From Acidobacteriota bacterium (GTDB lineage Bacteria > Acidobacteriota > Terriglobia > UBA7540): a stretch of DNA of 64,000 nucleotides. The notes beneath the pieces were generated by a model. It had not been told where the DNA came from. It searched no databases and saw only the letters and a program-made list of their open reading frames with translations. Below are positions 12,723 through 16,872 of this stretch, one piece after another. Numbering within the stretch: the stretch's first letter is position 1; each line of letters starts with the position of its first letter. The position numbers and the translations under genes were made by a program. The stretch spans positions 1 through 64,000 of the forward strand of contig CADDZE010000003.1 of assembly GCA_902812465.1 (NCBI GenBank). The letters run 5' to 3'.

Positions 12723-13438
12723 TTATATTTTTTCGCAGCCGTTCAGCCACGCTGCCCACCTTTGAAATACGCGCTTTCCGATGGCTTGGAGCGTAGGCAA
12801 ATGGATCGCGGCTTGGCGGCGAACCTCCTCCGCGTTCATTCCCTCTTCCTTCAGTTCGTCCGTAAACGTTCGGAGCATGCTCTCGAGAATCTCCGGCACC
12901 ACCTCCATGTGAAAAAGAAATCCATAGGCACATTTACCGTAGCGGAAGGCCTGGCACGCGGTGAGGCTGGATGAAGCCAGAGTGACGGCGCCCCTCGGTA
13001 CATCAAACACATCACCGTGCCAGTGGTAAGCGGCGAAAGTTTGATCGAGGCCTTTCAGAAGAGGGTCGCCCACGGCTGCTTCCGTCAGGGTATCGGATGC
13101 CATCCGATTTCCTTCTGCCGCCCTTTTCTCACCTTAGCGCCCAGCGCAGCGGCTAGCAATTGGCTACCCAGGCAGACACCGAGAAGGGGCTTGGACTCGC
13201 GCAAGGCGGATGCAATCAGACTCATCTCGTCGCGCAAAAAGGGATAACGGTCATATTCGTAGACGCCCATCGGCCCGCCCATGATGACCAGCCCCTCCGC
13301 TCGGTTCAGGTCCTTTGGCACGGGCGCGCCGAGCCAGGTGAGCACGCTTTCTAAGGCGTATCCTCGTGAGCGAAGCGCTTCGGCGATCAACCCCGGCTCC
13401 TCGCATTCTGCATGCTGCACGACAACCACTCTCTTCAT
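12723..13438 (-). pseudogene. Class I glutamine amidotransferase (GMP synthase-like), single frameshift
   Basis: Two overlapping frames together encode one class I glutamine amidotransferase of about 237 residues. The first (13438 to 13085) carries the N-terminus, the oxyanion region VIMGGPMGVYE and the nucleophile Cys in LLGVCLGSQLL. The second (from about 13103 to 12723) carries the catalytic His segment AAYHWHGD and the C-terminus. The break falls at GATACCCTGACG on the minus strand. Adding one C to the CCC run joins the frames into HPIPLTEAAVGDPLL, as expected for the family. The gene is therefore either a recent one-base-loss pseudogene or a sequencing under-call. Such proteins hydrolyse glutamine or gamma-glutamyl compounds; the substrate is unknown. 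It lies downstream of the MarR-protoglobin gene on the same strand and may be in its operon. Confidence 0.75.
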
Positions 13439-13503: not shown

Positions 13504-14814
13504 TCAGAAATCTCCGTCTTTGACGTAAGGCTGGCTCCAGAGTGTGACCTGGAGAATGACGGACTTAATCCAGGCCTGGTGCATCTTTTCCACCTCGTCG
13601 GCGGCATGCCCTTTCTTACCCAGGAACGGCTTCAGGGTGTAGGTAATCGGATAGATGAGAGTCGGCAGATAGCGATAGTGGATGTTTTCCACCGAGTCGA
13701 CGCCGTCCGTCTGGTTCTTAGCACTGCGGTGGTGCCGAAGCCCAATCTCATATTGGTAATCTAGCCACTTCTGGTCGTATTGGGCAGCTGCGGTATCGAG
13801 GATCCATTGCCCAAAGCGCTTGCGGACGGCTGCCAGGTACTCCGCGTCGGGTTGGCCGTCCGTCTTTCGCGTGAAGTAATGGAGCAGGTGCGGGTGAGAG
13901 CCCACAAAGCCGTACCAAACGTCCAGCACCTGCTCGACTTGGTCCTTTAACACCTCGCCGGACAGGCGCAGATATTTCACATCCTCGTCGGTAAAAAGCA
14001 CCGTTTGCTTCAGCAGCTCCAATTCCTGAAGCGTGATCGGCGATTTGTGAACAACGTCAGTCCCATAGGTATAACCCGGGATGTGTCCGGGAGCGGCAGT
14101 TTGACTCATGATGGTCCTCCTTCTGAGCGATGATAGAGGGTGCAAAAGTCTGGGCTTCGCCGCCGGGGGCTTATGCGAGGCTGCGCTCGGCGAAGCAGCT
14201 TGGTGATCCGGGCATTCCAGCCGCAAATGCCGGTCGCCGAAGGGCGCATCCACGAAATCACAGTGGTGCGGCCTTTCGGGATCGGCGTGCACATGGGGCC
14301 GAAAGAAACGGCACGTGACGCACATGCGGGAAACCGGAATCTGCCCCTGTTCCTGCATGTGGCGAATCATCTTGACGAGCGCACGCAGGAAAACAGCCTG
14401 CTCTTCGGGCGAGAGTGTCTGCGTGGCTGCCAACAGAAAGTCAGACCAGAGTGCCGCTCGCCGGGCAGCGCGCCTCCCCTTGCTGGTCAGGCGCAGAAGA
14501 ACCGCCCGGGCGTCCTCGGCATCCCTTTGCTTCGCCACCAGATGCTTGGCCATCAGCGTGGCTACCGCATCGCTCGCCGTAGCCGTCGTGACGGCCAGGG
14601 CTTCGGCTGCCTCGGAGACGGTCGTCTTCGCGCCTTGAGCTTCCCGCGTTCGGAGGACGACCAGAATTTGTGCCTGCGTCGGCGTCAGGCCCCGCTGGCC
14701 CGCCCGCTGCCAGGCCTGGCTGCGGATGGCAAGGCTGATCTTGTGCAGCCCCGTCGTGATGTGTTGCGCCGGGGGCAGCAGCTCCAGTTCGAGGGCAGGG
14801 GCGGGGGACCTCAT
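13504..14814 (-). CDS. MarR-family regulator fused in frame to a protoglobin
   Basis: One uninterrupted 436-residue frame. Residues 1-160 are a MarR-type winged helix (LTPTQAQILVVL, TVSEAAEALAVTTATASDAVATL, a wing with basic residues). Residues 165-201 carry four cysteines (C165, C168, C185, C201) with His residues, a probable metal or Fe-S site known in some MarR proteins. Residues 236-436 are a full protoglobin (about 201 residues) with QYEIGLRHH supplying the proximal-His region. At the junction the protoglobin has its own ATG (14109) and a strong site AAGGAGGA just upstream, but the MarR part has no stop codon. Both a fusion and a separately started globin are therefore possible. Protoglobins bind haem and O2, NO or CO, so a gas- or redox-responsive regulator is inferred. 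A consensus promoter overlapped by a palindrome lies upstream, suggesting autoregulation. Confidence 0.85.
   Translation of the reverse strand: MRSPAPALELELLPPAQHITTGLHKISLAIRSQAWQRAGQRGLTPTQAQILVVLRTREAQGAKTTVSEAAEALAVTTATASDAVATLMAKHLVAKQRDAEDARAVLLRLTSKGRRAARRAALWSDFLLAATQTLSPEEQAVFLRALVKMIRHMQEQGQIPVSRMCVTCRFFRPHVHADPERPHHCDFVDAPFGDRHLRLECPDHQAASPSAASHKPPAAKPRLLHPLSSLRRRTIMSQTAAPGHIPGYTYGTDVVHKSPITLQELELLKQTVLFTDEDVKYLRLSGEVLKDQVEQVLDVWYGFVGSHPHLLHYFTRKTDGQPDAEYLAAVRKRFGQWILDTAAAQYDQKWLDYQYEIGLRHHRSAKNQTDGVDSVENIHYRYLPTLIYPITYTLKPFLGKKGHAADEVEKMHQAWIKSVILQVTLWSQPYVKDGDF
14115..14122 (-). promoter_or_regulatory. Internal ribosome-binding site for the protoglobin
   Basis: AAGGAGGA on the minus strand ends 5 bases before the ATG at 14109, inside the MarR-protoglobin frame. 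Its strength suggests that a free 201-residue protoglobin is also translated. Confidence 0.6.
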
Positions 14815-14819
14815 AATAG

Positions 14820-14832
14820 TTAGGACTCCTAA
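14820..14832. promoter_or_regulatory. Operator-like palindrome TTAGGACTCCTAA
   Basis: A perfect 6+1+6 palindrome lies between the predicted -10 box and the MarR-protoglobin start codon (14814). Its length and place suit a MarR-family dimer blocking its own promoter. Part of it (AGGAG on the minus strand) may also serve as the ribosome site. Confidence 0.55.
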
Positions 14833-14860
14833 GTATAATCCCGCCTCTCGACCCCGTCAA
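14832..14860 (-). promoter_or_regulatory. Predicted sigma-70 promoter of the MarR-protoglobin gene
   Basis: On the minus strand TTGACG (14860-14855) and TATACT (14837-14832) are separated by exactly 17 bases. The -10 box touches the palindrome at 14820-14832. The start codon is 17 bases beyond the -10 box. Confidence 0.7.
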
Positions 14861-15050: not shown

Positions 15051-15111
15051 TTTTTACGAACAAAGCCGTAATGTCATTTAGAATCAAGCGAATACAAAAC
15101 CACGTCGAATT
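15051..15111. repeat. Imperfect direct repeat, copy A
   Basis: About 60 bases sharing AACAAAGCCGTAATGT, GAATCAA, ATACAAAA, ACGT and GAATT in the same order and spacing with copy B, 128 bases downstream (about 78% identical, no gaps). It lies in a non-coding stretch upstream of a decayed permease gene. The surrounding region 14861-15374 holds no recognisable gene. Confidence 0.6.
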
Positions 15112-15178: not shown

Positions 15179-15239
15179 TTTTCACAAACAAAGCCGTAAT
15201 GTTTCCTGGAATCAATGGGATACAAAATAACGTAGAATT
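15179..15239. repeat. Imperfect direct repeat, copy B
   Basis: This is the second copy of the repeat at 15051-15111, at a constant offset of 128 bases. Both copies are AT-rich relative to their surroundings. They could be duplicated regulator-binding regions or the remains of a duplicated promoter of the permease gene. Confidence 0.6.
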
Positions 15240-15374
15240 TCCGGCCTTCCAGGAAAAGGCGGCTCCAGGTATGTCACCAAGGCAAAGGGGGCAGTGTCGA
15301 AGCGCCGCGTGAGGCAAAAAGGCTGGGGGAGCAACCCTCTTGATCGTGGCCGGAATGAGCGAGGCACACTGGCT

Positions 15375-16045
15375 ATGAAGCTACTCCCGAGTGACCTCGG
15401 TTACGCCCAGCGCACGCTGCGCAGAAGCCAGGATTGGCCTTACTCGCTGTCTCGGCGCTGGCTTTGGGGATCGGCACCCATGCGGCCATGTTCAGCGTGG
15501 TGAACGCTGTGCTGCTGCGTCCCCTGCCGTTTCGCGATCCGGCCGGCTAGTGAAGATTGACGGCATCCCTGCTATTGATTTCACTGGGCCCCGGGATCGC
15601 GTGCTGGGCTGGCAGGATTGGGTCGGCAGAACGCGGACACTCGAAGACATCAGCGTCTACGAGCAGGGTAGTGTGAGCCTGGCCGGCGACCCGCCGGAAC
15701 ACCTGCCCGCCGCGGTTTCTTCCGTTTGCTTGGCGTGGGCCCGGTGCGCGGTCGGACCCTCCTTCCAGGCGACGACTCGCCGGGGCAGGCCGTGCCGGTG
15801 ATCAGCTACGACCTGCGGCTGGGGCATTTGACCGCCGACCCTGCGATCGTCGGCAAGAAGGTGGAGCTGGCTGGCCAGCCCTTTACCGTGATGGGTGTCA
15901 TGCCGCCGGGATTCGAGTTTCCCGGCGACACGCAGCTGTGGATTCCGCAAGTGCTCAATCGGCAGCAGAACCTGTTCGACGAAGGGGCCCTTGTGTATCA
16001 GCAAGTCGCGTGCTTGCGGTCTACTCGCCAGAGTTCTGGCGCCTA
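15375..16045 (+). pseudogene. Decayed orphan MacB/FtsX-like permease (acidobacterial ADOP family), N-terminal fragment
   Basis: Three frames in turn spell the start of an acidobacterial duplicated orphan permease. First comes [12 protein letters not shown], then the membrane segment [16 protein letters not shown] and [10 protein letters not shown], then the periplasmic core (VLGWQDWVGRTRTLEDIS, LLGVGPVRGRTLLPGDD, GKKVELAGQPFTVMGVMPPG, FPGDTQLWIP). Frame changes occur near 15428 and 15542, each repaired by adding one C. Another near 15715 also lacks a few residues. The copy then stops near 16045, at the 3' end of the convergent rsmA gene, so over half of a normal 800-residue protein is absent. 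It is a truncated remnant and not functional. Confidence 0.78.
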
Positions 16046-16872
16046 AGGGTGAGAAATAAGGGCAGAAGTTCGCCGATCCCAAGTTGTTCGGCGCGCGCGC
16101 TGGGCTTGAGTCCGAGCGACCCGAGCGCGTTCTGTACACGGGTGCGCGAGTACAGCGGCCCGAGATTGTTGAGCAAGGTCTTTCGCTTCTGCGCGAAGCA
16201 AAGTTGGACAAACTCCAGAAAGGCGGATTCCTGCTCGGGTGTCATGACCGCTTCGGCGAGGGCGCCGCGCCGGCTGGCTGAGCCCGCGCGGGGCCCGGAA
16301 AGAATACGGAATGTGACCAGTGCTGACTGGACCTTCGGCGGTGGCGTAAAAGCGCCGGGGGGTACGCGCAGGACCAGGGTGGGCTGCGAGTACCATTGCG
16401 CGAGAACGCTCAGATAGCCGTACGGCCGCGACCCGGGTTGCGCCACCACGCGCTCGGCCACTTCCCATTGCATCAGCAAGCCCATCGCCCGGATGCATCG
16501 GTGGAAACGAAACAGGTGATGGAGGATAGGAGAGGTGATGTAATAAGGCAGGTTGCCGAAGACGAAGCAGGTGGAGACGCCATAACGCTCGCACAGTGCT
16601 GCCAGGTCAACCTTTAGAATGTCGGCGTGTAGGATTGGCGCCCGTCCTGCGAACCGGCGCTCGAGTTCGGCGACCAGCTGGGAATCGAGCTCGATCCCCA
16701 CGACTTGCTTGGCGTGCTGTAAGAGCAAACTGGTCATCGCGCCGCGTCCCGGACCGATTTCTACCACGAGGTCATCGGCGCGCAGGTCTAAGGCAGAGAC
16801 GATACGTTCGCCGAAGCGCAGGTCCGCCAGGAAGTGCTGGCCGAGCTTGGGCGGTTTGGGATGGTGGCTCAA
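16021..16872 (-). CDS. rsmA: 16S rRNA dimethyladenosine transferase (RsmA/KsgA)
   Basis: This 283-residue protein has the complete RsmA signature: LGQHFLADLRFGERIVSAL, the SAM motif VVEIGPGRGAMTSLLL, IELDSQLVAEL, HADILKVDL and the catalytic NLPYYITSPILHHL. The C-terminal helical domain includes PPPKVQSALVTF and FVQLCFAQKRKTLLNNL. It dimethylates two adjacent adenines near the 3' end of 16S rRNA during small-subunit maturation. The last residues (RRQNSGE) run over the end of the decayed permease on the opposite strand, so the C-terminal tail may be acquired sequence. The gene is transcribed away from the radical SAM gene. Confidence 0.94.
   Translation of the reverse strand: MSHHPKPPKLGQHFLADLRFGERIVSALDLRADDLVVEIGPGRGAMTSLLLQHAKQVVGIELDSQLVAELERRFAGRAPILHADILKVDLAALCERYGVSTCFVFGNLPYYITSPILHHLFRFHRCIRAMGLLMQWEVAERVVAQPGSRPYGYLSVLAQWYSQPTLVLRVPPGAFTPPPKVQSALVTFRILSGPRAGSASRRGALAEAVMTPEQESAFLEFVQLCFAQKRKTLLNNLGPLYSRTRVQNALGSLGLKPSARAEQLGIGELLPLFLTLRRQNSGE

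Follow-up and report, generated by a model that had tools for sequence, protein, structure and literature searches.

The locus at positions 13504-14860 of the window (the whole 64,000-nucleotide stretch of Acidobacteriota DNA analysed here) is probably an autoregulated repressor-globin operon, judging from sequence comparison, in which a cysteine-containing MarR-family repressor and a protoglobin are separate proteins and the signal is probably nitric oxide (NO). The two are read as one protein in the window, and this fused regulator-globin is almost certainly a pair of overlapping genes joined by one extra T in the assembly.

Organization of the regulator-globin frame

An uninterrupted ORF of 436 amino acids on the minus strand (13504-14814) contains, in this order, a MarR regulator with four cysteines, a linker and a complete protoglobin. 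Pfam detected both domains above the curated cut-offs: MarR_2 (PF12802) at residues 42-104 (E = 3e-10) and Protoglobin (PF11563) at residues 263-434 (E = 1.1e-32; 113.6 bits against a cut-off of 25, covering profile positions 3-156 of 158). The regulator corresponds to residues 1-204 (14203-14814), and is supported by the Pfam match, an AlphaFold2 model, invariant cysteines and dN/dS. The spacer, an in-frame linker in the window, occupies 14110-14202 and is not conserved in alignments. The protoglobin (13504-14109; PF11563, phmmer and dN/dS) has 201 amino acids counted from its own ATG (14107-14109), which is preceded by a ribosome-binding site, AGAAGGAGGA (14115-14124), identical in the nearest relative. 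The initial annotation, which had described a single frame joining a four-cysteine MarR to a complete protoglobin with its own ribosome site and ATG, was thus accurate as to what the sequence holds.

The single frame hinges on one base in a run of T (14144-14147) inside the non-conserved spacer. In the nearest relative (G013; same family, another genus), MarR and globin are separate ORFs sharing four bases, ATGA. The window is 79% identical to G013 in MarR (over 204 codons) and 84% identical in the globin. When the unit is aligned over its full length at the DNA level, the spacers are one net base apart, TTTT in the window versus TTT in G013, and this sole length difference joins the two frames. 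The other frame of the window spacer still ends in SEGGPS and a stop at the ATGA, where the TGA (14106-14108) that terminates the MarR gene in relatives persists; the G013 counterpart ends in REGGKS and a stop at the same ATGA. This overlap is also present in G014/L006 (a genome of the same family), L084, L086 and L087, which together with G013 makes five lineages of two phyla, and L063 shows it too. MarR and globin are divided by a stop and a gap in L003, L004 and L065, and the gene order is reversed, with the globin first, in L009 and L010.

A MarR of this family lies within 1.5 kb of the protoglobin in 19 of 35 non-redundant protoglobin loci, a biased frequency as part of the loci were gathered via MarR, and the two form one ORF only in the window (1/19). 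Since relatives carry overlapping genes and a single ORF occurs only once, the separate genes are likely the ancestral state and the fused frame a one-base event. The initial annotation had proposed a one-protein gas or redox switch and had named a stop between the domains in relatives as the observation that would speak against it. MarR and globin remain separate ORFs at every one of the 18 other loci that have a protoglobin close to a family MarR (18/18), and in the spacer G013 and the window are one net base apart; the fusion interpretation is very probably wrong. A conserved MarR-protoglobin fusion architecture was rejected on the same 18 loci. What finds support is that the pair, which recurs in relatives as neighbouring genes, would act as one functional unit, and that the globin would be translated separately. 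The globin keeps its own start, so free globin can be made under a sequence error and a mutation alike.

It is improbable that a real 1-base insertion fused the two genes in the window lineage, giving a true one-protein switch in which the globin would sense gas in cis for the repressor and some free globin would arise from the internal start. The 436-residue frame is open, the dispensable MarR tail means that a linker would be tolerated, and the internal ribosome site is retained. However, the frame rests on one base, the genes are separate in relatives, the operon holds another 1-base indel at a distance of 1.1 kb, and the species is represented by one genome (3.9 Mb in 190 contigs).

A second indel in the operon

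This other indel affects the third gene, a class-I glutamine amidotransferase (12723-13438, minus strand), in which a 1-base deletion near 13091 leaves two ORFs. In G013 the amidotransferase is intact at the same position after the globin. A second indel in the adjoining gene makes it likely that the fused frame, too, goes back to a sequence error or to a mutation of very recent date. dN/dS against G013 was 0.14 for MarR and 0.09 for the globin, and stayed within 0.09-0.14 across the MarR core, the globin and both amidotransferase halves. Because all these parts evolve under constraint, both indels are either very recent or sequence errors. Frameshift errors throughout the window were rejected as the cause by a codon-bias scan, in which the other genes are mostly unbroken; the two indels therefore look local, which fits error and mutation alike.

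Decay of the operon, whereby the end of MarR and the amidotransferase would have acquired new frameshifts because the system is no longer needed, is quite improbable. Two indels fall within one operon and apparent remnants of a permease gene lie alongside it, but dN/dS is low throughout, also downstream of the amidotransferase frameshift, and the promoter, operator and globin are all intact.

Upstream of the MarR promoter, broken permease-like pieces were observed in different frames at 15391-16046 (translations judged by eye). Two similar copies of about 50 bases (AACAAAGCCGTAATGT...GAATCAA...ATACAAAA..ACGT.GAATT) lie upstream of the operon at 15056-15110 and 15186-15240. In another genome (G058; L016, 210-820), a protoglobin gene extends over two frames, possibly another 1-base draft-genome error.

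The four-cysteine MarR regulator

The C-terminal part of the regulator contains the pattern C165-X2-C168-X16-C185-X15-C201 (CX2C-X16-C-X15-C). An alignment of 32 homologues from several phyla has all four cysteines in every sequence and shows no conservation in the tail that follows C201. The AlphaFold2 model (mean pLDDT 91) has a MarR fold, with MepR (Z 15.9) and ST1710 (Z 15.8) as the best PDB matches. The protein shows both the winged helix (PF12802 over its cut-off) and the fold of the MarR family, as well as a palindrome at its own promoter in the form of a conserved putative operator. The Rrf2 domain, a trait of NsrR, was absent from a Pfam scan of the window protein with E up to 1, in which MarR families did appear. 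The cysteine segment had no structural match among the PDB matches listed, which cover mainly residues 11-158 and so do not indicate a new fold. The segment may be a small site for a metal or cluster, added on to a MarR protein.

Promoter and operator

The MarR gene is preceded on the minus strand by a -35 element, TTGACG (14855-14860), and, 17 bp away, a -10 element, TATACT (14832-14837). The latter has one base in common with a perfect 13-bp palindrome, TTAGGAGTCCTAA (14820-14832), which is the predicted operator (consensus TTAGGANTCCTAA) by its conservation upstream of family MarR genes. Among 84 non-redundant upstream regions of such genes, TTAGGANTCCTAA was found exactly in 8 and with at most one mismatch in 23. 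For 89 palindromes made by permuting these letters, exact matches numbered 0, and those with at most one mismatch averaged 0.03 with a maximum of 1. The site at the window promoter is the only one (at most one mismatch) in its 3.9-Mb genome, and sites of this type are likewise unique per genome in G381, G111, G633 and G790.

Exact copies of TTAGGANTCCTAA precede MarR or its operon in L006, L003, L057, L059, L086, L087 and L091, and variants occur in G013 (TTAGAACTCCTAA) and L044 (TTAGGCGTCCTAA). In L009, in which the globin comes before MarR, the operator precedes the globin as the first gene. Many sites are lengthened to TAG-TTAGGANTCCTAA-CTA. Of 58 sites in family loci, 15 have a TTGAC that begins 25-33 nt ahead of the operator, against about 0.009 expected per site. 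When looked for near Nitrospirota members of the family, the operator was absent from most; it thus marks a subset of the family.

Going by this distribution, the palindrome is a conserved and mostly local putative operator, and the natural reading is that the adjoining MarR would bind it. The promoter touching a perfect palindrome, the operator-like character of that palindrome and the self-control of the gene had all been claimed in the initial annotation. The promoter elements are present as described, the palindrome proved to be conserved in several phyla, with no second copy in its genome when one mismatch is allowed, and autoregulation appears to be the most likely mode of control.

The operator is present two or three times in the clusters of L123, L125, L131, L135 and L136, where several individual genes (thioredoxin-like, DUF2024 or secreted protein, MarR) each seem to be preceded by their own copy.

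The protoglobin

In a phmmer comparison, the window protoglobin aligned end to end with that of Methanosarcina acetivorans (PDB 2VEB; E = 1.4e-86). Its RHH and WYGF motifs align to 2VEB, keeping the proximal His and the distal Trp-Tyr, residues with a haem-pocket role in the protoglobin family. In the globin alignment W65 and H126 are invariant and Y66 is nearly invariant. Protoglobins bind O2, and may also serve O2 or CO chemistry. The window protein is predicted to bind haem and a gas ligand (O2, CO or NO). The physiology of protoglobins is little settled, and a dedicated repressor with its operator offers a direct route to the inducing signal.

Neighbours of the MarR family in other genomes

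Family MarR genes adjoin cytochrome P460 in three loci (L055, L115 and L124), a YgbA_NO gene with a multihaem cytochrome in L060, DUF438-hemerythrin-PAS proteins in L057 and L059, and a truncated globin in L123. DUF2024 genes and thioredoxin-like genes are also neighbours, the latter in Bacteroidota-type clusters. Several of these neighbour sets carry the TTAGGANTCCTAA-type operator too. P460 proteins are associated with hydroxylamine and NO chemistry, and YgbA is a member of the NsrR regulon.

Other recurrent neighbours were noted. A secreted-looking protein is repeatedly found beside the family (L045, L047, L048, L091, L122 and L125-L127), in several of these loci with a TTAGGANTCCTAA-type site of its own; the protein had no Pfam match in L047 and L122. 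In L121 (845-1477), one ORF of 210 amino acids immediately before the family MarR combines DUF2024 with a domain resembling truncated globin, which falls slightly below the Pfam cut-off. The two are separate genes in L123, so that L121 is perhaps another one-locus fusion. In Nitrospirota (L156-L172), four-cysteine MarR genes without the operator stand beside lipoprotein-like genes, with no Pfam match in L156, and beside a gene for a 285-amino-acid protein starting MKILAATDGSKHGKWAIEWL, which looks like a universal stress protein.

Proposed mechanism and signal

Separate genes in relatives, a conserved operator, invariant cysteines and purifying selection are established at the sequence level; we infer MarR binding to the operator, the metal, the signal and the task of the globin. 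In the proposed mechanism, a dimer of the cysteine-containing MarR would bind TTAGGANTCCTAA over the promoter and block transcription of its own gene and of the protoglobin gene. The four cysteines would hold a metal site, Fe-S or zinc, on which a reactive gas, most likely NO but possibly O2 or a redox signal, would act. MarR would then release the DNA, and the globin would be made and bind or detoxify the gas. The two proteins would be translated separately from ATGA-coupled overlapping genes, the single ORF of the window arising from one extra spacer base that is either an assembly error or a very recent insertion.

An autorepressed, NO-responsive operon is best supported because of the neighbours of the family (P460, YgbA_NO and others) and the precedent of ArnR. 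Counting against NO are the glutamine amidotransferase, DUF2024 and the secreted neighbours lacking a Pfam match, which have no known NO role. It is rather unlikely that the regulator responds instead to O2, haem, a thiol oxidant or zinc, with the globin as an O2 or redox partner. A four-cysteine site suits zinc or thiol switching, the protoglobin family binds O2, and thioredoxin-like genes occur in the Bacteroidota-type clusters. However, the independent neighbours lean to nitrogen oxides, with P460 in three loci and YgbA_NO next to a multihaem cytochrome.

With the fusion claim set aside, the yield is a testable regulon of one regulator family, one operator and consistent gas-handling targets in several phyla. 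We tentatively suggest that the four-cysteine MarR family and TTAGGANTCCTAA may form a regulon, so far undescribed, that responds to NO or to redox signals. It would extend over at least Acidobacteriota, Planctomycetota and the Bacteroidota/Ignavibacteria group and, in the niche of NsrR, would control proteins with haem or di-iron centres (protoglobin, P460, truncated globin, hemerythrin-PAS and YgbA). A limited literature search for the MarR-protoglobin pairing, its operator and a DUF2024 regulon found no relevant description.

Comparison with known systems

In globin-coupled sensors the globin is N-terminal and the signalling outputs are C-terminal; this comparison is apt only if the fusion is real, which it most likely is not. 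The protoglobin of M. acetivorans is a full-length homologue with the same haem-pocket residues, but has been described without a MarR partner. The MarR, SlyA, MepR and OhrR repressors share the MarR fold and a palindromic operator over their own promoter, whereas the present regulator adds a C-terminal four-cysteine segment, hardly covered by the listed PDB matches, and has a globin partner. NsrR, the repressor of hmp and ygbA, is an Fe-S protein that responds to NO and represses a globin gene, as the present regulator may do, and a YgbA_NO-family gene adjoins the present MarR family in L060; unlike our regulator, NsrR belongs to the Rrf2 family and uses another operator.

In Corynebacterium, the globin gene hmp is repressed by ArnR, a winged-helix [4Fe-4S] protein that lets go of the DNA in response to NO (PMC12343034). 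ArnR has three conserved cysteines (179, 193 and 223), spaced 14 and 30 residues apart, targets the flavohaemoglobin gene hmp and nar (narKGHJI), and has homologues almost only in Actinobacteria (PMC12343034). The present system resembles ArnR-hmp in its winged-helix repressor, its cysteines in the C-terminal domain and its predicted globin target. It differs in the cysteine pattern, with four invariant residues at 165, 168, 185 and 201 (CX2C-X16-C-X15-C), in the operator TTAGGANTCCTAA and in the protoglobin partner. The operon is thus a variation on the repressor-globin theme, with a different regulator and a different operator.
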